The notes beneath the pieces were generated by a model, which was not told the DNA's origin, did no database searches, and saw nothing but the letters and a program-made list of their open reading frames with translations. Of a stretch of 64,000 nucleotides of DNA, positions 791-48,907 are shown one piece after another. The stretch covers positions 13,584,348 through 13,648,347 of the forward strand of contig CAIIXF020000006.1 in NCBI GenBank assembly GCA_903813345.2, read 5' to 3'. The DNA is from Owenia fusiformis. Its lineage: Eukaryota > Annelida > Polychaeta > Sabellida > Oweniidae. The translations under genes and the position numbers were made by a program. Every line of letters starts with the position of its first letter. The stretch's first letter is position 1.

Positions 791-939
791 TTTTGATCAT
801 CATCATCATCATAGTACACGATTCAATCATTTACTGATTACTACATCGCGGGTTAGTATGCATAGTAAAAGATAAAAACAGTGTTAGAGTAAAAGGTAAA
901 GTTAAAATCGGTTTAAAAACAGTTACACAACAGTAAGAG

Positions 940-3900
940 TTAAGGAATGGGGTTTTGGTAGTAAGAACCCAGCGTGGTTTTAAAGCCTTCTAATGTTCCC
1001 GCTGTCACTATTGATTCTGGAAGTGAGTTCCATTCCCTGATTGTATTTGGGAAGAAAGACTGCAAAGTGACATCTTTGTTGTATCTGTGGCGGACAAAGG
1101 CTTGGCTGTTAGTTACTTGTAATCGTCTGGGTCTATTGTGGGAGGGGGGTTCAAGATATTGGTCCTTGGGAATTCCAACTAGGCTATTGTTGATTTTATA
1201 GAGCATGGTGAGCCGTTGTTGTTGTCTTCTCTGCTCCAGAGACTCCCATTGTAGCTTGGACAGCATAGCACCGACAGAGCTAACACGGTTGAAGTCATTC
1301 ATGACATACCGTGCTGCTCTTCGCTGGGTCATCTCCAGAGCTTGTTTTTGGGTTGATGTGTAAGGGTCCCAGACACAGCCTGCATATTCAAGCCTTGGTC
1401 TAATCAGGGTGAAATATGCAGTCTGCTTAGTATGTTGAGGAGCTTTCCATAAATGACGTCTCAGCATGCCAAGGAGCTGGTTACTCTTGGTTATGGATTT
1501 AGCAATATGCTGGTTCCACTTAAGGTCTGCCTGCACTGTAACACCAAGATATTCTGCAGACGATACCTGTTTAAGGGCATGTCCCTGCATGTTGTAGATG
1601 GAGACAGCAGGTGTTCGTCTTCCAGTTGCCGACAGCACAGTGCACTTGTCTGGGTGGAATTGCATCAGCCATTGATTTTCCCAGGCTACTGCAGCATTAA
1701 GGTCTTCTTGTAGTAATGCTGCATCGAGTGGTGAATCAACTTGTCTGTAAATGATGCTGTCATCTGCAAAAAGCCTCAAGGTACTATGTTGCAGGACATC
1801 AGGTAAATCGTTAATGTAAATGAGGAAGAGGATCGGACCGAGGACAGTCCCCTGGGGGACTCCTGATGTTACAGCTGCCTCATCCGATGTCACTCCATCT
1901 ACACTAACTCTTTGGGTTCTTGCATGCAGGAAGTCTTTGATCCAGTAGTTGGCCTGACCTCTGATACCGTAGTATTGGAGTTTGTAAAGCAGGTGGCGAT
2001 GTGATACTTTGTCAAATGCCTTTGCAAAGTCCATCACTATGACATCAGTCTGGTGATTAGTGTCATTCGCCAGTACAAGGTCATGGAAAAAGGTGACAAG
2101 TTGTGTTTCACATGACCTCTTACTCCTGAAACCATGTTGCAAGTCATACAGGATCCCATTGGTCTCAAGAAACTGCATCATGTTGCTAACTAGAAGATGT
2201 TCAGCAAGCTTGCAACATATGCAGGTAAGGGACACTGGTCTGTAGTTGGAGGCCTTGTATCGTTCACCCTTCTTGTAGACGGGGCATATTGTGGCTTTCT
2301 TCCAGTCAGCTGGTATTTTGCCTTGATCTAGTGACCGCTGGAAGATTAGTGTGAGCGGCATGGCGATGTCGGATGCCAGCTCCTTCAAGACTCGAGATGG
2401 TATTGAGTCTGGGCCACTAGCCTTGTTGGGGTTCAGGCCTTCGAGCATCTTCCGGGCTCCTTCTTGGGTGATGTTGATGTCCGGCATGGTTGGGTGAGGG
2501 CTATGTCCTTTGTCTGGCAAGGGGGTGTTAGGGTCCTTGGAGAAAACAGACTGAAACTGCTCATTGAGTATATTGGCCTTGCCGATGTTATCGCAGGTCA
2601 ATACTCCATCCTTTTTTAAAGGAGCCACAGAGTCAGCTGTTTTCCTCAGACTTTTGATGTACGAGAATAGCCTCTTAGGTTTAGTCATTCGAGCACCTGG
2701 AGATGTTGATTCAGGTGATGGCTCAGAGATGACATTCTCGATGTAGGTCCAGTAGGCTGCTCTTGTTTGCTTCTGGACAGCGGCTTTAAGGGACTTATAG
2801 TGACTTAAGTTTGACGTGGACTTAAACCGCTTGTGAAAGTATCTGTCACGTCTCTTCATGAGTCTTCTGATGTTGTCGGAGACCCAAGGCAACTTGTTCT
2901 TACTGTTAAGCCATTTGTGGGGGATGTGTGTGTTGATGGCATTACACAAGCTATCTCTGAACAGAACCCAAAGGTCTTCTACAGGTGTTGTTCTAGGGAA
3001 AGCGTTCATTGTTCGGTAGGTTGAGTTGACATCAGCCACGATCTTTTCCCAGTTGGCTTTATTGTAGCGAAGTGTTTTCCTAGGAGCAGCTTTAGATCTT
3101 GTAGCTTTTAGGTTGACATCAACAAAGACCACATTGTGGTCACTTTCGCCAATGGGAGGAGCGATCTCAACTCTGTTGACTAATCCGGGGAAGCTGGTTA
3201 GAAAGAGGTCAAGTGTGTTATTCCCTCTTGTTGGTTTGTCAATCATTTGGGCAAGATTAGCATCATCAAGGGTGTCGAGAAGCTGCTGATGGAGTTGTCG
3301 ATCCGGCACTCTAGGTGGGATATGTGCTTCCTCATTGCCCCATGAGATGTGCGGGAGATTGAAGTCACCGCTGACCCAAATGTGTGGTTGTGTGTGTTGT
3401 TTGGATAGGAGGTCCAGGGATTTCTGAAGTTCAGTCAGGCTGTGACCTTTATCATCTGGTGGCCTGTAGTAGGATGACAAATACAAGCGCTTAGAACCAA
3501 CTAAGTTGATTGAAGCCCAGGCAGCTTCACAATCAGTCTCCAGGTCTTTCGCCTCGCTGCTGATGAACTCTTTCGAGATGGCAAGGAGGGAGCCACCATA
3601 GAAATGACCATTGGCTGCTGGAGTTTGCCTGTCACGTCTATAGACTGAGAATGCGCTGAGGTCAAAGATGGTGCCTGATGGGATAGATGAATCAAGCCAT
3701 GTTTCTGTTCCAAAGATGACATCTGGTTTAGTTGACTGGATGACTGCATCAAGTTCAGCTCGTTTGTTCTTGATCGATCTGAAGTTCACATTCAAACAAC
3801 GAATAGGACGGCAGAGGGTCTTCTTTACTGCTGTACGTCTATGGTGTTTAGGTGAAGAGGTGGCTATGGGGCTACCAGGTATGCTGTCATCTGACAAAAT

Positions 3901-4188
3901 TGAAAACTGGTTGGTAGATGTATCAAATATTGTCAGGTCGAACAAACCGGATGAGAAATTGGGTAAACCACATGTCGTGCAGATCCATGTGGTGTTGCTA
4001 CTGTTGAGGTACTCATAGCATAGAGTGTCTATTCCTTGGCAATCTGCATGAAACCATGTGTCACAATTCTCGCAGCACACGCCTCTGTGTTTCCATGTCA
4101 CACCTTTACTACATGTACCACAAGGCCATTTAGGGGAACTTGGTTTGGGGCCTGGGTTTGATTCAATATCAGTAGATTGACTAAGCAA
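940..4188 (-). CDS. LINE polyprotein: 2A-like peptide, PHD finger, endonuclease, reverse transcriptase
   Basis: Retrotransposon protein of at least 1082 aa, numbered from the codon at 4188, which is TTG and not a true start. Residues 7-14 read DIESNPGP, a match to the 2A ribosome-skipping consensus D(V/I)ExNPGP, preceded by a Leu-rich stretch. Residues 23-73 form a C4HC3 PHD finger. Residues about 129-358 are an AP-like endonuclease with ETWL (162-165), GDFN (274-277) and SDH (349-351). Residues about 585-860 are the reverse transcriptase with NYRPVSL, SGVPQGTVLGP and the catalytic FADD (807-810). The C-terminus (LEYAGCVWDP, then FFPNTIREWNSLP) is typical of CR1-like elements. The frame stays open upstream to 4362 but contains no ATG, so initiation is unresolved. 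The protein would nick target DNA and prime reverse transcription there. Confidence 0.93.
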   Translation of the reverse strand: MLSQSTDIESNPGPKPSSPKWPCGTCSKGVTWKHRGVCCENCDTWFHADCQGIDTLCYEYLNSSNTTWICTTCGLPNFSSGLFDLTIFDTSTNQFSILSDDSIPGSPIATSSPKHHRRTAVKKTLCRPIRCLNVNFRSIKNKRAELDAVIQSTKPDVIFGTETWLDSSIPSGTIFDLSAFSVYRRDRQTPAANGHFYGGSLLAISKEFISSEAKDLETDCEAAWASINLVGSKRLYLSSYYRPPDDKGHSLTELQKSLDLLSKQHTQPHIWVSGDFNLPHISWGNEEAHIPPRVPDRQLHQQLLDTLDDANLAQMIDKPTRGNNTLDLFLTSFPGLVNRVEIAPPIGESDHNVVFVDVNLKATRSKAAPRKTLRYNKANWEKIVADVNSTYRTMNAFPRTTPVEDLWVLFRDSLCNAINTHIPHKWLNSKNKLPWVSDNIRRLMKRRDRYFHKRFKSTSNLSHYKSLKAAVQKQTRAAYWTYIENVISEPSPESTSPGARMTKPKRLFSYIKSLRKTADSVAPLKKDGVLTCDNIGKANILNEQFQSVFSKDPNTPLPDKGHSPHPTMPDINITQEGARKMLEGLNPNKASGPDSIPSRVLKELASDIAMPLTLIFQRSLDQGKIPADWKKATICPVYKKGERYKASNYRPVSLTCICCKLAEHLLVSNMMQFLETNGILYDLQHGFRSKRSCETQLVTFFHDLVLANDTNHQTDVIVMDFAKAFDKVSHRHLLYKLQYYGIRGQANYWIKDFLHARTQRVSVDGVTSDEAAVTSGVPQGTVLGPILFLIYINDLPDVLQHSTLRLFADDSIIYRQVDSPLDAALLQEDLNAAVAWENQWLMQFHPDKCTVLSATGRRTPAVSIYNMQGHALKQVSSAEYLGVTVQADLKWNQHIAKSITKSNQLLGMLRRHLWKAPQHTKQTAYFTLIRPRLEYAGCVWDPYTSTQKQALEMTQRRAARYVMNDFNRVSSVGAMLSKLQWESLEQRRQQQRLTMLYKINNSLVGIPKDQYLEPPSHNRPRRLQVTNSQAFVRHRYNKDVTLQSFFPNTIREWNSLPESIVTAGTLEGFKTTLGSYYQNPIP

Positions 4189-4230
4189 GACTAGGCTAAG
4201 ATATAGGAGTGGCAGTCTACTATTAGTGCT
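4148..4230 (-). other. Hydrophobic leader plus 2A-like skipping motif
   Basis: On the minus strand this stretch encodes a Leu/Val-rich segment (PLLYLSLVLLSQST) running directly into DIESNPGP. In known 2A sequences the ribosome fails to join the final Gly-Pro, releasing the upstream peptide. N-terminal 2A sequences preceded by a signal-like leader are described in sea-urchin LINEs and NLR genes. The motif is seen directly; activity is inferred. Confidence 0.75.
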
Positions 4231-4400
4231 ATGGGAATTAATATAGACATGGCTATTGAAATTCCTTGGTCTGAGGAAATTTATGGAAACAGGCAGTGTT
4301 TGGGTGGATTTGACATGTACTGGGTGGACTGAGATACATGGTCTCAGTTGTAAAGTTAATATCTACAATAACATATTTTCAGGGTAATAAATTGAACGAT

Positions 4401-4674: not shown

Positions 4675-4829
4675 ATCATAACGAGACCCTATCTGTTGCA
4701 AGACTAATGCCTGGCGTAACCGTCACCATGTTATTCAGTGTTTTTAAGTAGCGCAAGGATCCTGCCATGACCGCGGTAATGTTATCATGAAAGCTTGGTA
4801 TAACGATAACCGCGACAATGCTGTATTAT

Positions 4830-5285
4830 ATTGCAATGCCTGCCATGACCGTGACAATGTAATATAGTACTGCAAGGCCTGGCATGACCGTGACAATGTT
4901 ATATAGTTCTGCAAGGCTTGGCATGACTGTGACAATGTAATATAGTATTGCAAGTTCAGGTATGAGAGTGATAAGGTATACATTTACGATTAGGACTGCT
5001 ATAACCGTGACAATGTGTATTGCAAAACCTGGCATGATCGTGGTAATGTAATATAGTACTGCAAGGCCTGGCATGGCCGTGACAATGTAATATAGTATTG
5101 CAAGGCTTGGTATGACCGCCGTGGCAATGTGATATAGTATTCCAGGTTCGGGTATGAGAGTGGTAATGTAGAAATTTATGATTACTATAAGTGACCGTGA
5201 AAATGTGTATTTGAAAACCTGGCATGACTGTGACAATGTATTATGGGATCACAAAGCCTGGTATGACCATGACAATGTAATATAC
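4830..5285. repeat. Subterminal tandem repeat, ~40 bp unit
   Basis: Diverged copies of gcaaggcctggcatgaccgt followed by gacaatgtaatatagtatt repeat about every 39-43 bp. Related copies in inverse orientation lie at 6365-6480. Short open frames here are by-products of the repeat (ITLSRSCQALQY-like strings) and not genes. Confidence 0.85.
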
Positions 5286-5288
5286 AGA

Positions 5289-6085
5289 GTTTTCAGTAGG
5301 CTTGTCCAAAATTGCGTCCCTTGGACGTAATGATTTTCAAAAAATGCGTCTCCCTTCAAAAAACTGCGTCCCTTGAAAAAATGTTCCCGGGAATTCAAAA
5401 GTCACGTTTTTACACTGGATGAAATAAATTGATGAAATTTTGTACCACTGCTTTTGCTATTTATCGGTCTGAATCAGCGTTCTTGCAAGTCTAGTATGTC
5501 ATTGAATGATACAGATACCATCATAACTTATATTCTCCCATTTAAAACACCTTTTCCTTGCGAATTTCGAAACAATTTGCTATTGATTTTGCTTTAGCAT
5601 GTTTAGTTTAGGGGCAATCTGCGCGAGGTTCAACTTTTTAGTTCAGTTTCTTGCGCATATGCAGTCTCAAATAATGATCACGTGATCACACTTGACCAAT
5701 TGAAAATGGTTTGAATCAGGTCTTAAGCTACCGGCCAATCGTAGGACTCATACTGATTACTGCTCGGAAATCGAGTATTGTATAAATTTTTGTCCTATCA
5801 CATGCCTCGTACTATTTCGATCAGAAATCAACTTCCGGGAAGGAAATTTCGAAAGAAAATTTTATTTCTTTTAGAAATAGAATTTTCTTCAATTATTTAT
5901 TGGATTCTGACGAAATAAAGAGACTGAAGGTAAGATCTTTATCAAATCATTCATCCAAAGTTGATTGTATGAGTATGGCTTGCACTGCGTCCACAAAACG
6001 CAATCACTTTTTATTTCCGGGTCCATGGATTTTTCATTACGTTTTTGCAATACTTGGACGGCGTTATTGAAATAGCAGAATATAG
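5289..6085. mobile_element. Internal segment, possible nested insertion
   Basis: Sequence unlike the surrounding ~40 bp repeats separates two parts of the array. The repeat resumes at 6083 with the phrase atatagtattgcaaggc. Both ends carry cgtcc and cgtaatg strings in opposite orientation (near 5315-5330 and 6035-6062), hinting at a second TIR element. It could also simply be the original core of the outer element. Confidence 0.35.
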
Positions 6086-6571
6086 TATTGCAAGGCCAGG
6101 TATGAGGGTGGTAATGTAGAAATTTAGGCTTAATTAGTCCTACTATGATCGTTATAATGTATTGCAATGACTAGTAAATATGTATGACATTAATGCTAGG
6201 AATATCCTTAACAATTTTAAGTGATCGTCATTACAATTAAACAGTTTAATACTATGATCATGGTGTTTAACTACCTTAATCATGTCAAAATCAAAATTAC
6301 TACTAAACATTAATATTCACATTCGCTTATAAACCACAATAAAGGCTACGGTCGCGCCAGGCTTCCACGATAACACTTCGAGGGTCATGACAGGCCTTGC
6401 AATATAATACAGCATTGTCACGGTTATACCAGCCTGTCACGGTTATACCAGGCTTACACGATAACACTACCACGGTCATGGCAGGATCCTTGCGCTACTT
6501 AAAAACACTGATTAACATGGCGACGGTTGTGACAGGCGTAAGTCTTGCAATAGATAGCATGTGATCATAAC

Positions 6572-15900: not shown

Positions 15901-18900
15901 ATCTGTTTGAAATAGTCAGTTTCAAACTATGTTTATCTGTACCCTGTAAAAATTAAATTTATGTTTAACTTTTTGTTTCAGGTTCAAGACAAACATTTGC
16001 TCATTGTGGTGCTAGAGGTGGTTGTCATGGTGCTGTTAGTTGTGCTATGCATAATGGGAGGTCGAAGGTCAAGCAGAGAGTTAACCCATGAACAAGTAGA
16101 GCCTGTATATACAGTAGTGACACCTATGTATGTTGAAGTTTTATTATCTCATTGAAAAAAATTCAAATTGGCAATTTTATTTTGTTTTAAAAATTAAATC
16201 AATTATAGTTTTTGTTAAATATTATATCAAATTCGGACAGTAATAACATCTTGTGAAAATATTGATGATTGCATTTAGGAAATGGAGAAGGCGTCGACAT
16301 TCCATAGATGGTTCTATAGGGCACAGTCCAGAGAAGGATAAGGTGGAAAACATTGGCCAGACATCTGAAGGTAAGACTGTGAGGCTATGTAATCAACAAG
16401 GCATCCACTTTTCAGTCCCTCCATCCATCTGTCAATTGATGGTACAAATCAAAACTTCTATTTTTATCCACAAAATGTTTATCTAATGTAGTATCTATCT
16501 AGATGTTCTTACAGCAACTTAGTCTGACTAATACCACTGAATTGAAACTGTACATTCTGACTAATACCACTGAATTGAAACTGTACATTCTGACTAGATG
16601 CCACTGAATTGAAACTGTACATTCGTTTTTCTGAATGAATGAAAGCAACACTTCATTTGTCCATGTGAGTCATCTCCCCAGCATGTTTTGTGATCAATAT
16701 TTTATTTGTTGCTTTCATTGTTTCTTATTTATATTTCAGATGCAACTGTGAAGGCCTCTCAGCCTCAGAATATGTTGCCCTTTTTCTTTGATGATATTAA
16801 AGTAAGTCATCATTTGTTTGTTTTGGTTATTTTTCGTCTTGCATGAAATCGTTGCGTAACCATCCCTCCCCACTCTTACGCATAACAAGGTGATATCATA
16901 TTGGAAGAGACTTGATGCAGCTTCTTATTTGTTTATTATTCAGGTGTTTGAGGACAAATGCATCCAGTTTTTTTTTCATTTAGACTTATTAATGGATTGA
17001 TTTACATTAAATTTGTAGATGATTATAAAAAAGTTTAGATGCATTTTCTAATAACATACTAATTGCTCTCTATAAGTATCATAGATTTATTACTACTTCA
17101 TCTATAAGAGATATAAACAGGTTCCAGTGAAGTTTGACATTTTTCCAGTTTGACAAAAGTATTAAACAAAACTGTTTTATAGGTGTTTTTACTCATGACA
17201 TATTTATTCATTTCATCTTCTTACATTAATTCAGGCACATGTATTTCAGAGGGAAACAAGTTGTCTGAATTCAGACAGAAACATTCCTTAGGTAAACATA
17301 TAGTGTATCTTATACTTGAATATTCTGTGTCTGAATTCAGGCAGCGGCTTTCTAATCTATAAGAAACCTAAATTTTCACTGTCTGAATTCAGACACAACT
17401 TGATAATAGTAAGATGAATTTGTTTATCTCTTGTGTCTGAATTCAGACACAGGCTTTTCCATATTAGAAAACAGAAGCTGATTTCAACTGTCTGAATTCA
17501 GACACAATTTGATAATAGTAAGATGAATTTGTTTATCTTATGTGTCTGAATTCAGACACAGGCTCTTCCATAATAGAAAACTGATGCTGATTTCCACTGT
17601 CTGAATTCAGACACAACTTGATAATACTGTAAGATGAATTTGCTTATCTCTTGTGTCTGAATTCAGACACAGGCTTTTCCATATTAGAAAACAGAAGCTG
17701 ATTTCAACTGTCTGAATTCAGACACAATTTGATAATAGTAAGATGAATTTGTTTATCTTATGTGTTGTGTCTGAATTCAGACAGTGGAAATCAGTATCAA
17801 TTTTCTCAGATTGAAATCTTGTCTGAATTCAGACACATAAACAAATTCATCTCACTATAATGAGACTGTGTCTGAATTCAGACATAGGCTTTTCCATGTT
17901 AGAAAACTGATTCAACTGTCTGAATTCAGACATGGACTGATCATAGTGAGGTGAACCCTAATTAAGTTATGCAATGTTGCATATGACCACATTATCCATA
18001 CTTTTCTGACAGAAATGGACATAATATACTCTAATTCACATCAAAGTAATTAGAAAACAAGGCATTAACATGACAAAATGTCACCACCTCGTTGCTCACA
18101 ATATTATGAGTTCAAACTTAAGTCAGATTTGAATTTCTGAGAACTTGTAAAGTCAAATTTGAACTTCTGAAAAGATGTAGATGATTTTGAAAAAAAAATT
18201 TGGTCAATTTGAAGCAAGTTGAAAACAGACCTTTTTGACCTTTTTTGACCTTGAGAAGGTCATTAAAGGTCAAATGTCAAATCTAAAGTCAGATTTGAAT
18301 TTCTGAGAACATGTAGATGATTTTGAAAAAAAAAATTAGTCAATTTGAAGCAAGTTGAAAAAAGACCTTTTTGACCTTTTTTGACCTTGAGAAGGTCACT
18401 GAAGGTCAAATGTCAAATCTAAAGTCAAATCTAAAGTCATATTTGAATTTCTGAGAACATGTAGATGATTTTGAAAAAAAATTTAGTCAATTTGAAGCAA
18501 GATGAAAAAATACCTTTTTGACCTTTTTTGACATTGAGAAGGTCATTGAAGGTCAAATGTCAAATCTAAAGTCTAAAGTCAGATTTGAATTTCTGAGAAC
18601 ATGTAGATGATTTTGAAAAAATTTTTTAGTCAATTTGAAGCAAGTTGAAAAAAGACCTTTTTGACCTTTTTTGACTTTGAGAAGGTCATTGAAGGTCAAT
18701 GTCAAATCTTAAGTCAAATCTAAAGTCAGATTTGAATTTCTGAGAACACGTAGATGATTTTGAAAACTTTTTTTAGTCAATTTGAAGCAAGTTGAAAACA
18801 GACCTTTTTGACCTTTTTTGACCTTGAGAAGGTCATTAAAGGTCAAATGTCAAATCTTAAGTCAGATTTGAATTTCTGAGAACATGTAGATGATTTTGAA

Positions 18901-21900
18901 AAAAAAAATTAGTCAATTTGAAGCAAGTTGAAAAAATACCTTTTTGACCTTTTTTGACCTTGAGAAGGTCATTGAAGGTCAAATGTCAAATCTAAAGTCA
19001 TATTTGAATTTCTGAGAACATGTAGATGATTTTGAAAAAAAAATTTAGTCAATTTGAAGCAAGTTGAAAAAAGACCTTTTTGACCTTTTTTGACTTTGAG
19101 AAGGTCATTGAAGGTCAAATGTCAAATCTTAAGTCAAATCTTAAGTCAGATTTGAATTTCTGAGAACACGTAGATGATTTTGAAAATTTTTTTTAGTCAA
19201 TTTGAAGCAAGTTGAAAACAGACCTTTTTGACCTTTTTTGACCTTGAGAAGGTCATTGAAGGTCAAATGTCAAATCTTAAGTCAGATTTGAATTTCTGAG
19301 AACACGTAGATGATTTTGAAAAAAAAATTTAGTCAATTTGAAGCAAGTTGAAAACAGACCTTTTTGACCTTTTTTGACCTTGAGAAGGTCATTGAAGGTC
19401 AAATGTCAAATCTAAAGTCAGATTTGAATTTCTGAGAACATGTAGATGATTTTGAAAAAAAAATTTAGTCAATTTGAAGCAAGTTGAAAAAAGACCTTTT
19501 TGACCTTTTTTGACTTTGAGAAGGTCATTGAAGGTCAAATGTCAAATCTTAAGTCAAATCTAAAGTCATATTTGAATTTCTGAGAACACGTAGATGATTT
19601 TGAAAAAAAATTTTAGTCAATTTGAAGCAAGTTGAAAACAGACCTTTTTGACCTTTTTTGACCTTGAGAAGGTCATTGAAGGTCAAATGTCAAAACTTAA
19701 GTCAGATTTGAATTTCTGAGAACACGTAGATGATTTTGAAAAAAAAATTTAGTCAATTTGAAGCAAGTTGAAATTGAAGGTCAAATGTCAAATCTAAAGT
19801 CAGATTTGAACTTCTGAGAATATGTAGATGATTTAGAAAAACATTGAAGTCAGTCTAAACAGTATTTGTTAAGTTATAGGAAGTTGTAAGAAATTGTTAC
19901 AGACGCCGGACGCCAACCGCCGGATGCCAACCGCCGGACGCCAACCGCCGGATGCCAACCGCCGGACGCCAACCGCCGGACGCCAACCGCCGTCGCAAAA
20001 AAACGGAGACCATAACAATATGTCACCACTTTTGGTGGTGACATAAAAAAAACGGAGACCATAACAATATGTCACCACTTTTGGTGGTGACATAATAATA
20101 ACAGTTTCTTTTTATATATGGTTCTCAGTGACAGTTCTCATGGTTTAATCTACTGTACATCATTACAAAATGTATATGTTCAACCTTAAGTTCATCAAAT
20201 TGTATGTCTGACTACTTTAATATAATATATTTCAGCACATATTTTTGAGTACACTCAGTACATACAGAAAAAGTTGTCAAGTTATTCCATTCCATTTCAT
20301 TTGATTTTTCATTTATTTGATCCTTTTAACTTAGAGATGTTAACGTACATTCTGCATCACATGATTGAAGCTGATTTAAAATTGATGAACTATTTACAAT
20401 CAAATTCTTTTGTTAATAACTATTATGATACTAGTATAGTAACTATATAGTAAATATAAAAGGTATAATATACAATGTACAACCCAAGGGAAAAGTGAAC
20501 CATGTCACTTTCACTTCATTTGATAGATCTTTGACAATTTGTAGCTGTCAAAATACTAGATTAATAGTATTTATCTGTGTGTCTCGAATTGTGGCGGGGG
20601 GGGGGGTGTCAATGTTTTTTTTTAAATTTTGTTGTAAGTTGATCTTATTTCTGATTTGTTGTGGGATTCAATTAATTGGACTGTGTTAAAGCGAATGCTT
20701 AACTTCAATTTTAAGTTCCCTGTCAATAGTCATGGTACAGTAGATGCCATTGGATATAAAGTTTGCCGTGTTCAATTGATATCCCGTTAAAAGTAAATTT
20801 TAATGTCCAATTTCCACAACCAAACCAATCTTCACTGCTTCACCAGGACTCATTCTATATCCTACTATGTATTCCACCTCAAACTTCTGTCTTATTTGGA
20901 GGGGTCTCTGGTTTCCCCCTGATTTAATGGACATTTGCTGGTTACAACCTGAAATAGTATAGATTAAACAGTTTTATCTATGTTATCATGAAGACTCACC
21001 TTGACGGATGGACAGACAAAAGCAGACAGACACTCCTAATAATAAAGAAAAATAACAAAATAAGCGGGAAAATAACACACTTCATATTTCATATGGAGTG
21101 TAATGGACTATAATAATTTGAGTGGAATATACCTTTTTGACCATTATTGTGTTTTGATTCAATGTAATGCTCATACCTTTTTCTGCAGACCTTGACTTTG
21201 TTCGTTCAATAATGCTGTTAGGATTAATCACTTTCTTTTTTGACTCATGTGTATGTCCTTCTCATATAGCCATGAGAGTTTGACCGGATTTTCTGAAATA
21301 TTAATTATCAGTCTATCAATGTCAAGTAAGAATAAGTTAATTAATTAAGTAGAATTTAAAGCAAACAATTTTTTTTAAAATTAAATATACATTTTGATGA
21401 TGGTGTTACATACTTGCAGTGCAAACATAGATTCCTTCCAATATATGCAAACTCTCTTTGTTATGTTCACTGACTTTTGTCACTTTGTATAGCTCGGCAA
21501 GTCGATATTCAAATGATATCGGCCCTGTTTCAAATGTTGGTACCTTAGTTGCCATCTCATATTTTCCAAGTTAGTTTTGCATTGTGTTTTCTACCACAAG
21601 TAAATGCATCTAGGAGTGTTGTCTTCATAAGATCTACATCTAAAGCCTTCTCTTTTCTAGTATTAGTGGTTCTGCAAAATAAACAGTGCTAACATATTAT
21701 TTGACCTCACAGACTTGACGTTTTTGTCTAATACAAGATTAAAAAACCATAAGAGTCATTATAATATTTTGAATTCCCATATTAAGCTGTCACCCAAGGA
21801 GGATTGGAAGCCAGGGTTCCAACTCAATATTCTTTAATCTCCAATCGATGCGATAGTTTCCGATCCTGCCTGTATATTTCTACGGCTGCCAGGAGAATGG

Positions 21901-30900: not shown

Positions 30901-33900
30901 TTGAAGATGAATCTGACAAAATGCGAAGATAGACTTGATGAATATGACCCTAATTTACTTCAGATTTTTTTTTGAAATCGTTAGATTAGAACTTGGGCTA
31001 GTATAATGATGAAGCTAACAGATTATAATGTATTATGAAAGAACTAGAGTATTACTCATATTTACACGCCTAACCATCGACAACGTAGTGACAAAATATA
31101 CCATTGCACACTTTATATTGTACAGTGTCACTAAAAACTGATGATGCAGGTGTGATGTAGGTTTTCAAAAATTAATTTTGGGAATACTTGAAAGATTTCA
31201 ATTTCATCTTCAACTTTTAGCTTTCTGATTACATTAAAAGATTTAAAAGCAATGCTTGATTTTTTCCTATTTAGTCTATCAACAAAAATTGATCGGTTGG
31301 AAAATGTTGGGTTTTTCACATTTCCTTTGAATATTTTTCTCCTGTCACCTAAGAGTGTCATTTATTTTTATGAGAATATGTTTCTCTAAACTACACAATT
31401 TAAGATGAGTGAAGATTTGATAAGTATTATGTATTGGGTGTAATTTTAATAAAAAATCAGAAGAGTAGTTGTCAACTCCACTGAAGGGTGTCAGTGTAAA
31501 TGAAATTCACTAGATGTTATATTGAACAATGCAATAATTAAACAAGTTATGTTTAAGGAACATGTTCAATTATCCCCAATACAGATGTTCTAAAGTTAAG
31601 GTAAATTTGATTTTTAAATCTTGTTGAATGTTATTTCATTTTATAAAAGTGTTGGTGTGGTGATTAATATGTGACCATGGGGTGTTAGCCTCTTACCTCT
31701 TGATCACTTGACATCTGTACTTTAACGTAATAAGAAACACTTTTATGAATTTTAATTATCTTAAGAAGTTGATAGTGAGATTTATACTAGCTAGTCGAAG
31801 ATGACTTTTTAAAATCCTCTTTATGCTATATCTGGAAAGTGTTGAGGTTCAATACGATGGTTCAATCAAGTTTAAGTAATACTGTGATTGTTAAGTTTCA
31901 GTTTTAAATCAATCTGATCCCCCTGCCCATTAGTGTTATTAAAAATATGTTGTCAGGGTTAACTGTGAATTCAGATATGTAAGTTCATTGGGACAACGTA
32001 CATCAAGATGACAAGGCACATTTGTAATTTTTTGATTTTTATTATTTTAACTAAAACATGAATATTTATTAAATTTTCAACCGACCTTAATTGTGTAACT
32101 TAAGGAAACATATTCTCATAAAAATAATTGACACTCTTAGGCGACAGGGGGAAAAATGATCAAAGTAAATGTGAAAAATTCAACATTTTCCAACCGATCA
32201 TTGTTTGTGGTTAGATTTACTATGAAAAAAATCGAGCACTGCTCGAAAATCTTTTAACGTAATCAGAAAGCTAATGGTTTTCCTAATCGAATACACACAA
32301 AATTAAACATGAAATTCTTTATGCATTCCTCAGATTAATTTTTAAAACCTACATCACACCTACATCATATCTTTTGCTTCATATCAGTTAGAATAGTGAC
32401 ACTGTACATCAAAAGTCTACGAGGGTATATTTTGTCACTGTACTTTTTCGATGATCAGGTGTGATTTAAAATAAAAAAGTTAAAATGATCAATCTTCTGC
32501 CTGTTGTACCATCTGTTACAGTATCTTCTAATGAAGTATTTTCTGTAATGCTAAAGATTACTTGATCTGTACGTGATGAACTACTTTTTAAAAATATCTT
32601 GTCATAAAATTTAAAATTATACTTATATAGAATTGCAATTAAAACATTATATAGGACATGTTAATTGCAATCTGATGAAAATTTCTGTTGCCAAACTTAT
32701 GAATGGAAGCGAAATTGCTTTTAACACTCAAATGTTGACTTAATGAATTTGAATTCAAACATCAATTTCGATTAAAAAACAGAAGTGAAAACTATAATTT
32801 CTGAATCCTTACCTGTAATGTCAGTTTACTAGAATGTCTGAATTCAGACACCTTATTTTAGTTTTATAGATTGTTGTCTGAATTCAGGCACCTCATCCAA
32901 GCTTAGCAAGTTGTCTGAATTCAGACACTATATTTCAGTTTTATAGATTGCTGTCTGAATTAAGGCACCTCATTCAAGCTTAGTAAAGTGTCTGAATTCA
33001 GACACCATATTTCAGTTTTATAGATTGTTGTCTGAATTCAGGCACCTCATCCAAGCTTAGCAAAGTGTCTGAATTCAGACACCATATTTCAGTTTCATGG
33101 AATGTTGTCTGAATTCAGGCACCTCATCCAAGCTTAGCGAGTTGTCTGAATTCAGACACCATATTTCAGTTTTATGGAATGTTGTCTGAATTCAGGCACC
33201 TCATCCAAGCTTAGCAAAGTGTCTGAATTCAGACACCTTATTTTAGTTTAAGAGAATCTTGTCTTTTTAAATTAAAAATGTGTGGGCATGTCTGAATTCA
33301 GACACATATTTTCCCATACTAAGAGTTGCATAGAGTAAAACATCTGCCTGAATTCAGACACTTCATTTATCTACACAAAAAGCTTGTAAATATGTTGCTG
33401 ATGTCTGTACATAACATAGATATACAGTACCTAGAAATATATATCTTTATTTTTATACTTTGCTGGTTGTTTATAATCTTTTCTCATACAAAAAACTTCT
33501 CCAACACCTGAAGAATACATTAATTGTCAAATATATTTCTTAATTTATATTAATAATTCAAACTTTTGTCACCTATGGAATTGCCAAACTACACTGGAAC
33601 CTGTTTATATATATTCCAGAATATATCATAATTATACTCTTTCTTATTGTAAATGGCGTACAATTTTGGTATTTCCTTCCCCAACAAATTCAATTCTGTA
33701 GATGTTGTTTTTCCAGTGATCTCCACAAATTCTCCAAGGTTCACCTGTACATTTAATTGTACATTCACTGTCATCTACCTTCCCATGTTTCCCATATGAG
33801 TTCCCACACCAACATTGTGCTCCTATTTGTATACCAGCATATACGTAGCCTTCTGCTGCAAGTAAAAAAATGACTTATGTGAATTTCTTTTTTTCTGTTC

Positions 33901-46327: not shown

Positions 46328-48907
46328 GTATAGCATACTACATGGAAATATATAATTCATCTTTGAAAATTAAAAAAAATATAGGACCTTGGTATGCATG
46401 ACCTTCCCTTGCCCGATAGGTTACTCTTATGCAACATGGCCTTTTTGTCTTTTATATAGCCGCTAGGGCTAGGCACAAAAGCTTTCGAACCGCTCACTCC
46501 CTTTGGTCGTTCGGGGTACAGAAAACGTTTGTGCCTAGCCCTGCGGGGTGTATATTACCCCTACTCTTCGGTCTATATTTCTTAAATAGATGCCTTCTAA
46601 ACTAGGACTAATACCCCTAGAACAGGCCCGCCAATGTGATAATAATCTAGATTATTTCATCCATTCTCCTATATTATTGCCCGCTATTACATTTTCATTT
46701 CCAAAACTTGCATATGGCGTATGGTAACAGTCTACATCACTTACATGGTACTGTAGCATCGTGTATACTTTTTCAGATGGTGTCAACTACAAGCAAAGTC
46801 CCTGGATTTACCAGACTGATATCGATGAGATTCAATGCAGGGTTCTCATGAAGCGAGATATTCACCGCGGATGCTTTCAGGTAAATATTACTGGTGTTCC
46901 TCAAGTTTTTATTCTTGGTCGTCTCTTGAACAGATGACGGTAAACGTGGATATTCATGTTAATGCACTTCGTGTTTAACAAGCTCATGGGTTATAAAACG
47001 ATATCCATGCAAATTACATTCGATAAGGACAGATTCCTGAGATGACACCTTTATCAATGCGTCGCCAGTTTCTTACCAGCACTGAACGCCCATGTACGTG
47101 CAATGTTTCACATACTAACCCGAATATATTTTGGAATAAGTTACCCCTAGATCTAGATCTAGAATTATGCCTGATTTATTGTATACGGTTATTGTATTGG
47201 TATATGTTCGGGCTGCCAGTTATTGCAAATAAGAATCTACTGCTATAGACCATTGAGTTCTGTGCTTACATTCTTTAACATATGATCGATATTTTATCAA
47301 ACATAATATATATATATTTCAACACCTTTATCATAATTTGATGAACATGTTGAATCATTGTTGAATTGTAAATTTTGTTTACAGTTGTGTCATCCCTACT
47401 ATCCTGCTATATCTTTGATTTTGATTCTAGCTCTGATTCATTTTACCATATTAATTGCAGACAGTATCAGGTCTGAACAAAGATGTCCCTCCAGGATTTG
47501 CCTTCTATCAGATGAAGAATAGTAATACCAATGAAGAGAAAGTTGCAATCAGGAATGAATGGAGACATTGCATAGACGAGAGTGATTTCCTCTCCCCTGC
47601 CTCTATGTATCTCTGGTTTGTTGATGGTAAGCATTGCTGTTACTTTGTATTGTACCATGTTCCTGAACGCCTACGCCCATACCCCCCTCCCCATCACTGT
47701 GCCCCCTCCCCTCCACCGTGCCTCACCCCCGAAGGCACCAGCTTTTTTCAAGCTACTTTGCAATGTATTGTAAAAGTGATTTCAGTTATGGTACGCCAAT
47801 CAATTTTTCAAAGTGTATTTTGAATTGCAACATTATAACATTGAACTAGAATTATTGCATGTTATAATGAAATGCCTGAGCGACACAGATAACTCAACAC
47901 ACATGTGTGTAGCCTATCATAGGGGCTGTTTTATGTTTCCGAATGTTGCTTTTTTTCTTGGTTATAATATATCACATATGGGTCATATCATATTAGCTTG
48001 TTCTTCCATGGAATATTTATTCATTCCAGGCATGGCCCAGGCGCTAAAGATGCTCCAGGATGAAGATGAAGAAATGGCACAGATAGAGATGTTCGTCACT
48101 TTCCCAATGGTCACGTTGAAAGTGTACGATATCCCTCCGCCGGTAGACGGAGCACAACCCAATGATTTCACAGACTGTCTGCCCAGTTGCACTATAAATA
48201 TATTCCCGGCTATCATGGGGACAGGGTGGCCTGAAGGAGTTTCATTGCATCATGCTTTGCCCAATCTTAACCCATATCTGAAACTAGGACAACGGTGCAT
48301 TGCTGAGATAAAGGAAGAAATGGCTGATGGTCAACCTATGTGGTTCTTGGAGGCCCGGCCATTGACCGGAACAACTAAACTCGAAGGCGTGAAGTTATTC
48401 TCACGAGTACTCAAAGACCTGGACAGATCTTCACGCTTGTGGAAATTTAGCTTCACTACAGTTATGACTCGTTTGTTTCAGAACATTGAAGAAGTGAATG
48501 AACTTGGGTATTGTGATGATGTTTTGTATATCATGCAGGCTATTAGGAGAAATCTGAATGATAGTGCTGCTTCAGTTCTACGATTTGACATTCTGAAGAC
48601 GATCATGCTCATTGAACATAAACGTCAAGCAGCAAAACTTCGCACACCAGGAGATATTTTCATAGTCGTTTTGACTAAGCTCAGAGATATGGTCAAATCT
48701 GCCACATGCCCGCATTACCTGCTTAGAAACATTAACATATTTGATACAGTCAATTCACAATCTCTACAAGAAGCATTTTCCCCTATACAACAAATGTTGA
48801 AGGATATCACAAAGAGACCTTATAAGGTATTGAAGTATGCAGGCTCTGTGAAACATGCCATTCCTGAGGTTCATGAACTGAGAGACCAAACTCCAGAGCC
48901 GGTGTGA
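45967..48907 (+). CDS. Mab-21/cGAS-like domain protein (four exons, 502 aa)
   Basis: Join 45967-46327, 46777-46880, 47461-47626, 48030-48907; GT-AG introns, phases 1, 0, 1. The family comprises Mab-21 developmental proteins and cGAS-like nucleotidyltransferases. The C-terminal half shows the family order: TINIFPAIMGTGWPE (265-279), GQRCIAEIKEE, MWFLEARP, LWKFSFTTVMTRLF (347-360), LKTIMLIEHK (399-408), CPHYLLRNINIFDT (437-450). The N-terminal ~50 residues are acidic and disordered. TDIDEI (134-139) may be the paired metal-binding acidic motif, but the usual GS-x-x-E before it is absent. The third catalytic Asp position appears as Asn 267. It is probably enzymatically inactive, acting as a binding protein or scaffold. 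The exact subfamily is unclear. Confidence 0.82.
46465..46542. repeat. Hairpin AGGGCTAGGCACAAA...TTTGTGCCTAGCCCT
   Basis: Inverted arms of about 20 bp with an inner weaker pair (tcgaaccg/ggtcgttcg), within intron 1 of the Mab-21-like gene. Probably a small foldback element. Confidence 0.75.
46777..46880 (+). CDS. Mab-21-like gene exon 2
   Basis: 104 nt between ctttttcag and GTAAAT, phase 1 in, 0 out. Encodes DGVNYKQSPWIYQTDIDEIQ and on to HRGCFQ. Confidence 0.8.
47461..47626 (+). CDS. Mab-21-like gene exon 3
   Basis: 166 nt after ttaattgcag, ending GATG-GTAAGC, phase 0 in, 1 out. Encodes TVSGLNKDVPPGFAFYQMKN to SMYLWFVD. Confidence 0.82.
48030..48907 (+). CDS. Mab-21-like gene exon 4 (core of the domain) and stop
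   Basis: 878 nt after ttcattccag, ending TGA at 48905-48907. It carries the second half of the nucleotidyltransferase fold and the helical C-terminal lobe. The open frame runs further upstream, but splice phase requires the acceptor at 48029. Confidence 0.87.

Follow-up and report, generated by a model that had tools for sequence, protein, structure and literature searches.

What a ribosome-skipping peptide may do at the front of a retrotransposon enzyme, and what the protein segment ahead of it is for, are the questions raised by a locus in the window analysed here, that is, the whole stretch of 64,000 nucleotides of Owenia fusiformis DNA. The minus strand of the window encodes the octapeptide DIESNPGP (4147-4170), a core of the 2A or StopGo type D(V/I)ExNPGP, inside a PHD-endonuclease-reverse transcriptase (RT) frame of 1140 codons, and the same octapeptide is carried by a sister copy, L002 (G000:C16). 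When the six frames of the window are considered, D[VI]ExNPGP is observed once, against 2.6e-5 occurrences expected by chance.

The element in the window

The features of the element, from its outer limits inwards, are the following.

796..4360, minus strand: 5'-truncated LINE insertion, 3565 nt aligned, gapless and 99.2% identical to L002; its 3' end is a short ATG/TGA repeat
940..4362, minus strand: open frame of 1140 codons, stop to stop, lacking a Met ahead of the 2A core; one or two codons at its start belong to flanking DNA
4171..4221, minus strand: Leu-rich tract SRLPLLYLSLVLLSQST, the upstream part of the 2A-like element, different from the N-terminal signal-like segment of the longer copy
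4147..4170, minus strand: 2A/StopGo core DIESNPGP, with the break predicted between Gly and the last Pro
3970..4122, minus strand: PHD finger (Pfam PHD, E 5.2e-4, by itself under the curated cut-off)
3127..3792, minus strand: APE-type endonuclease domain (domain match; motifs TETWL, GDFN and SDH in the translation)
1534..2274, minus strand: reverse transcriptase domain with FADD (RVT_1, E 3.7e-31)

The sequence-only reading of this DNA had recognised a 2A-like core, for which it gave no strand, in a LINE protein with a PHD finger directly behind the core, and both points are borne out: PHD finger, endonuclease and RT follow the core in one frame, as in type IIIA single-ORF PHD LINEs. The PHD finger is further supported by a profile of nine relatives that matches solved Pygopus PHD fingers (best E 9.2e-14), and the three endonuclease motifs are likewise present in L002. 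The same reading had placed the motif at the head of the protein, which does not apply to this copy: no Met is found in the window frame between the motif and the stop codon just upstream, in flanking DNA, and the leader is cut by 5' truncation. As to the hydrophobic leader that had been described, a hydrophobic Leu-rich stretch does precede the core, but it corresponds to the upstream tract of the 2A itself; in the longer copy, the signal-like segment is found about 60 residues earlier, at the far N-terminus. The stretch resembles the L-rich (LLLLSG-type) StopGo class (PMC12846837).

L002, which has a start codon and a leader of 81 aa ahead of the core, came to light when the host genome (498 Mb, 525 contigs) was searched with a query of 108 residues spanning the motif; this gave 38 rows, 33 of which were fetched as loci, and L002 is the one other place that is 100% identical over the query. 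Its alignment with the window begins at window position 4360, 53 nt past the A of the L002 ATG (the 5' junction of the window insertion being uncertain by about 3 nt), and ends at 796, with 28 differences, 14 synonymous and 14 non-synonymous, the first of which possibly belongs to flanking DNA. Since the alignment starts inside the L002 frame and no Met precedes the motif, the window copy has to be seen as 5'-truncated with a cut leader, and without an in-frame start codon this leader is not made by ordinary initiation. The window copy is thus a dead, 5'-truncated LINE insertion of the single-frame PHD-endonuclease-RT type. The 5' region of L002 is present in at least two places, which among the matches listed are those of the window and of L002 alone. 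The 3' end of L002 gave 41 rows in the genome, 14 of them with a length of 450 nt or more and an identity of 96% or more, and 12 of these 14 are without a match to the L002 5' region among the matches listed. A target-site duplication is not claimed, the longest word common to both flanks being 9 nt and lying away from the junctions.

The rest of the window holds several features of other kinds. Adjoining the LINE, two inverted arms (4689-4804 and 6442-6557, 89% complementary) enclose a 39-bp tandem array at 4832-5139, and the element that they delimit (4689-6557) looks like one of the fold-back or MITE type. A long tandem array of period 136, with overlapping periods of 284 and 420, occupies 18148-19773, while two separate tandem arrays, at 17374-17765 and 32835-33264, have units with the common word TGTCTGAATTCAG. 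Finally, an open frame of 375 aa on the plus strand (47780-48907) matches the Mab-21 C-terminal domain above cut-off (E 1.4e-7) and is possibly a host gene exon.

Leader architecture in the PHD group

What the window copy has lost can be followed in its relatives, which were compared through one representative for each of nine subfamilies: L002 (a), L003 (b), L004 (c), L006 (d), L010 (e), L027 (f), L028 (g), L029 (h) and L030 (i), the frames of b and g being short (240 and 413 codons). In each of the nine, a hydrophobic 15-mer that starts at residue 1-8 and has a mean Kyte-Doolittle value of 1.78-2.89 comes directly after the first in-frame Met, and, beyond a linker, a second such 15-mer ends 0-3 residues short of the core. 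As a control, 114 Mets that follow the core in these frames were examined, and none reaches 1.78 (best 1.64). When leaders were shuffled within themselves, the observed N-terminal value was equalled in 12 to 1861 of 20000 shuffles, the test being weakest for d (1861 of 20000) and i (1145 of 20000), and a stricter hydropathy cut of 1.6 over 19 residues is failed by d, h and i, that is, by three of the nine. The core is preceded by 70-103 residues in the eight subfamilies that have one, whereas 68 residues stand before the D of i; counted to the Gly, the leader measures 77-110 aa in those eight, with 88 aa in L002. The P-site Gly of NPG comes 55-89 residues after the end of the first hydrophobic segment in the eight representatives with a core (70 residues in L002). 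A purine is found at -3 of the start codon in seven of nine cases, the exceptions being the window family (C) and i (T).

Sequence likeness between the leaders is uneven. Those of e and i align better than any of 500 shuffles, and this still holds when the last 22 residues are left off. Outside these last 22 residues, the number of shuffles (of 500) that reach the score of the real pair is 0 for e-i, 6 for a-c, 19 for f-g, 89 for a-d, 102 for a-b, 148 for f-h and 216 for e-d, so that four of the seven pairs tested are no better than shuffles. The dN/dS ratio of these leaders was not used, since most of the 36 pairs show either saturation at synonymous sites or little alignable sequence. Hydropathy suggests that the PHD-group leaders may be signal-like or membrane-bound, and it is on hydropathy that this reading is based.

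Conservation of the core

Genomic copies were proposed by the sequence-only reading as the place to look for a motif that drifts freely, and such drift is not seen there: NPGP is kept in 29 of the 33 fetched loci (38 rows in the search) and p15 is free. The four loci without NPGP are L027, with QPGP, L030, with the core lost in frame, L031, which begins after the core, and L033, in which no core was seen. Among the nine subfamilies, D12 is present in nine and NPGP in seven, with differing codons. The full core is held less strictly. Position 14 is E in a, b and c, H in d and e, N in f, S in g and Q in h, i having no core; five of the eight subfamilies that possess a core thus have another residue in place of E14, and the strict D(V/I)ExNPGP occurs only in a and b, c having DLE. 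Upstream, where the L-rich tract is present, p11 is the usual G in six of nine representatives and T in the window family. The core of f is DINIQPGP, and the frames of f and i both exceed 1100 codons. L030 (G000:C8:37262100-37264100) is a natural core-less variant, whose frame from Met still counts 1124 codons. The pattern is best read as probable constraint for a 2A with a relaxed p14 rather than as free drift, f and i indicating that loss is possible; as both keep frames of over 1100 codons, the 2A may even be dispensable.

Some of these substitutions have counterparts in published work. A passage of PMC12846837 describes p14 as almost exclusively E in RNA viruses, H14 being rare there, and gives an activity of about 90% or more in reticulocyte lysate for a natural H14 core; Q14, in older mutants as recounted in the same part of that paper, is only partly active. 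In the genome studied here, pattern matches with H or Q at p14 (99) are about as common as those with E (95), these counts being of copies and not of independent families.

Subfamily e and the absence of ORF1

Subfamily e, with its H14 core, is the PHD-group family with the most near-identical copies in the 108-residue search, and an intact Met-leader-DIHPNPGP is present in 15 of the 20 copies examined. Fourteen copies with an intact leader were compared against each other at their 5' ends (L009, although its leader is intact too, was not included), and eight of them (L013, L014, L016, L017, L019, L020, L024 and L025) are alike as far as a common 5' end, which lies 511-519 nt before NPGP and about 295 nt before the ATG, while the other six stop sooner. 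An earlier estimate, in which 11 of 20 other loci had alignments to L010 starting at the same base, was dropped, as that base reflects the truncation of L010 itself. With a shared end about 295 nt before the ATG, there would be no room for an upstream ORF1 of usual size in subfamily e. For the window family, just one copy reaches the 5' region among the matches listed. To our knowledge, no explanation has been given for why some LINEs have a 2A but no ORF1.

The front block of these elements seems, in addition, to have passed from one RT lineage to another. A tree built from the RTs of 12 elements, all from this genome, carries a long-branch warning and places f and h in one lineage (100/100) and a, c, d, e and i in another (100/99). 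The PHD piece of h, however, is 54% identical to that of e and 42% to that of f, whereas its endonuclease and RT are only 24% and 31% identical to those of e against 50% and 61% to those of f. This pattern, probably a sign of exchange, is in line with the reticulate ORF1 evolution and module exchange between LINE lineages described in a section of PMC4120745.

Long leaders in other 2A-LINEs of the genome

At the level of the whole genome, exact matches to a DNA pattern for D(V/I/M)ExNPGP number 95, the reversed control having 0, and a pattern for D-x-(H/Q)-x-NPGP gives 99, with 1 for its control. From the two match lists, 62 loci (L042-L103) were chosen by reading and fetched, one for each distinct string not already in hand; the octapeptide is intact in 60 of them, L094 and L100 having a stop inside it. 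In 57 loci the core is followed by 25 aa or more, and 53 of these belong to a single endonuclease cluster; no PHD finger was seen after the core in this cluster, and Pfam finds endonuclease and RT in both of the two frames tested. The remaining four are L064 and L067, which pair together, and L102 and L103, which stand alone. In L064 and L067 the core DVEMNPGP is followed, instead of by an endonuclease, by sequence that resembles, by eye, the coiled coil of a LINE ORF1; the leader of L064 has 55 aa and the frame of L067 lacks a Met. A 2A in genes of other kinds is not evident among the 62 loci.

Thirty of these loci have leaders of at least 128 aa, with a family of about 145 aa (for instance L052, L058 and L063) directly before the 2A core and the endonuclease frame; L079 was excluded from these counts on account of a chimeric upstream frame of 263 aa, apparently the tail of another LINE. 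At least three hydrophobic 19-mers at like positions are found in 27 of the 30, and a second hydropathy script, which places the segments differently, finds them in 28; as a control, the 142 aa behind the core contain no hydrophobic segment in 25 of 25 cases. A (W/Y)RxxxG motif lies near the start of 28 of the 30 leaders, the N-terminal motif being WRxxIGxFN-like. Four partly related pairs give dN/dS values of 0.35, 0.31, 0.26 and 0.63; they are what was left of all pairs of 27 leaders after filtering to a dS of 0.1-1.2 and an identity over 0.3, closer and more distant pairs being dropped. Pfam gave no match at the curated cut-off for the ten leaders searched, and weak matches to TMEM175 (E 0.015) and DUF5083 (E 0.72) were not used. 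By their hydropathy, the long leaders look like membrane proteins ahead of a 2A and a LINE enzyme, with insertion and release predicted.

What the leader may do

The build of the leader, its recurrence and the conservation of NPGP are shown by the sequences; from them we infer the skipping, the ER targeting and the purpose of the leader. The account that we favour, with somewhat better than even confidence in it as a whole, is that the leader carries the LINE mRNA, while it is being translated, to the ER membrane and remains there, the skip freeing the enzyme from its signal. The leader would emerge first, as 68-103 residues in which a hydrophobic signal-like segment following the first Met is joined by a polar linker to another hydrophobic stretch that runs into the 2A-like element. 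At NPGP, the ribosome is predicted to skip the Gly-Pro bond, which would release the leader, and translation would continue into a Pro-PHD-endonuclease-RT protein that bears no signal. According to a passage of PMC2978324, 30-40 residues fit in the exit tunnel and 65-70 in ribosome and translocon together, so that a first hydrophobic segment lying 55-89 residues before the P-site should already be out of the tunnel at the moment of the skip. Thus exposed, it could bind SRP or dock at the ER beforehand, and the leader might then hold the translating mRNA at the membrane while the skip separates off the enzyme.

Several points count against the proposal, among them the weak N-terminal test of d and i, the failure of d, h and i at the stricter hydropathy cut, the leader pairs that align no better than shuffles and the altered or lost cores of f and i. 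A passage of PMC5478143 reports that human L1 is not hindered by drugs that block the exocytic pathway, and the window family itself has T at p11 and C at -3 of the Met. Part of PMC2978324 also shows that upstream proteins can inhibit the 2A when they are targeted to the ER, and the outcome of the skip behind a leader of this kind may for that reason be mixed.

The most serious competitor, which we judge unlikely at perhaps one chance in a few, is ordinary 2A processing, with the leader being a 2A peptide plus whatever open frame happens to lie upstream and the N-terminal hydrophobic segment having no targeting role. Skipping by itself would account for the conservation of NPGP, and the four leader pairs that do no better than shuffles outside the 2A tract are what such an origin would give. 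It leaves aside, however, that the signal-like segment follows the first Met in all nine subfamilies and none of the 114 other Mets, that the likeness of the e and i leaders extends beyond the 2A tract, and that a recognisable leader family with three hydrophobic segments recurs in other 2A-LINEs of the genome. The sequence-only reading had instead suggested dual targeting, in which incomplete skipping sends a signal-bearing share of the RT protein to the secretory pathway and this share matters. Such targeting is described for the 26-aa 2A sequences of SpNLR proteins in a part of PMC4981915, and the core-less i and the QPGP-bearing f might yield the fused form only. We nevertheless regard it as improbable here: a secreted endonuclease-RT has no evident use, the signal-like segment lies well ahead of the skip site instead of within the 2A itself, and f and i copies each appear once in the genome searches run. 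That the motif is a functionless relic across the lineage, kept since the copies are young, is very improbable, because the truncated window copy without normal use of its motif, the replaced E14, the QPGP of f and the lost core of i are outweighed by subfamilies so deeply diverged (PHD pieces 31-61% identical, except e-i at 67%) that still keep NPGP in seven of nine cases with differing codons, and by the 2A constraint pattern of a free p15 with a fixed D12.

The docking account can be extended, with a good deal less assurance, to the genome's 2A-LINEs in general. Conceivably, they all have a first product of one kind, as yet without a name: a StopGo-released membrane leader that replaces ORF1 and is either signal-like and of 68-103 aa (the PHD group) or of about 145 aa with three segments and the WRxxIGxFN-like motif; it would dock the mRNA on the ER before the skip, the RNP would assemble at the membrane, and the leader-2A-PHD block would move as a cassette. 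This generalisation is tentative, and we would sooner bet against it than for it. Membranes have come up in this field before: a membrane role has been suggested for esterase-type ORF1 proteins (in a passage of PMC3905857), and a section of PMC5478143 raises it for L1 via ESCRT. If it is true that the released leader is a membrane protein, these elements would offer a direct test of a part for membranes in non-LTR retrotransposition. They also supply natural H14 StopGo cores, a variant rare in RNA viruses, from cellular elements that were copied recently. As regards the window itself, the point remains modest, its copy being truncated.

Comparison with known systems

Among the closest systems with which these elements can be compared are the single-ORF APE-type LINEs in which 2A-like sequences were reportedly described, and linked to one-ORF elements, by Odon et al. 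2013 in Mol Biol Evol. What they have in common is a one-ORF LINE of endonuclease and RT with a 2A-like sequence close to the N-terminus; the signal-like or multi-segment build of the leader is not known to have been the subject of that study. By domain order, the window element resembles the type IIIA LINEs of CR1 subgroup 6 and L2 subgroup 4, with an N-terminal PHD finger and a single endonuclease-RT frame, as set out in part of PMC4120745; in the main text of that paper, the words ribosome skipping, self-cleaving, hydrophobic and leader are absent. It is important to stress that 2A in LINEs, single-ORF PHD LINEs (in the same part of PMC4120745) and 2A-based dual targeting (in a part of PMC4981915) are known already. 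No report of signal-like or multi-segment leaders in 2A-LINEs was found in the open-access literature searched, which is weak evidence. The leader build of the relatives looks under-described and worth testing.

With the 2A signal sequences of the sea urchin SpNLR proteins (in a part of PMC4981915), the elements share a hydrophobic N-terminus and a 2A core ahead of a cytosolic protein. Dual targeting by these 26-aa sequences is already published there, and the idea of two destinations from one ORF is thus prior art. The two systems differ in build: in SpNLR, a single segment of about 26 aa is both signal and 2A, whereas L002 has 81 residues before the core and 88 aa to the Gly, with a signal-like segment at the far N-terminus that is predicted to be exposed before the skip. 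Judged by its length, the sea urchin signal should still be inside the ribosome when the skip takes place. Finally, the L-rich StopGo motifs 2 and 6 of RNA viruses, as presented in a section of PMC12846837, resemble the cores described here in their L-rich upstream tract, D12 and NPGP; unlike them, five of the eight subfamilies with a core have H, Q, S or N at p14, and the window family has T at p11.
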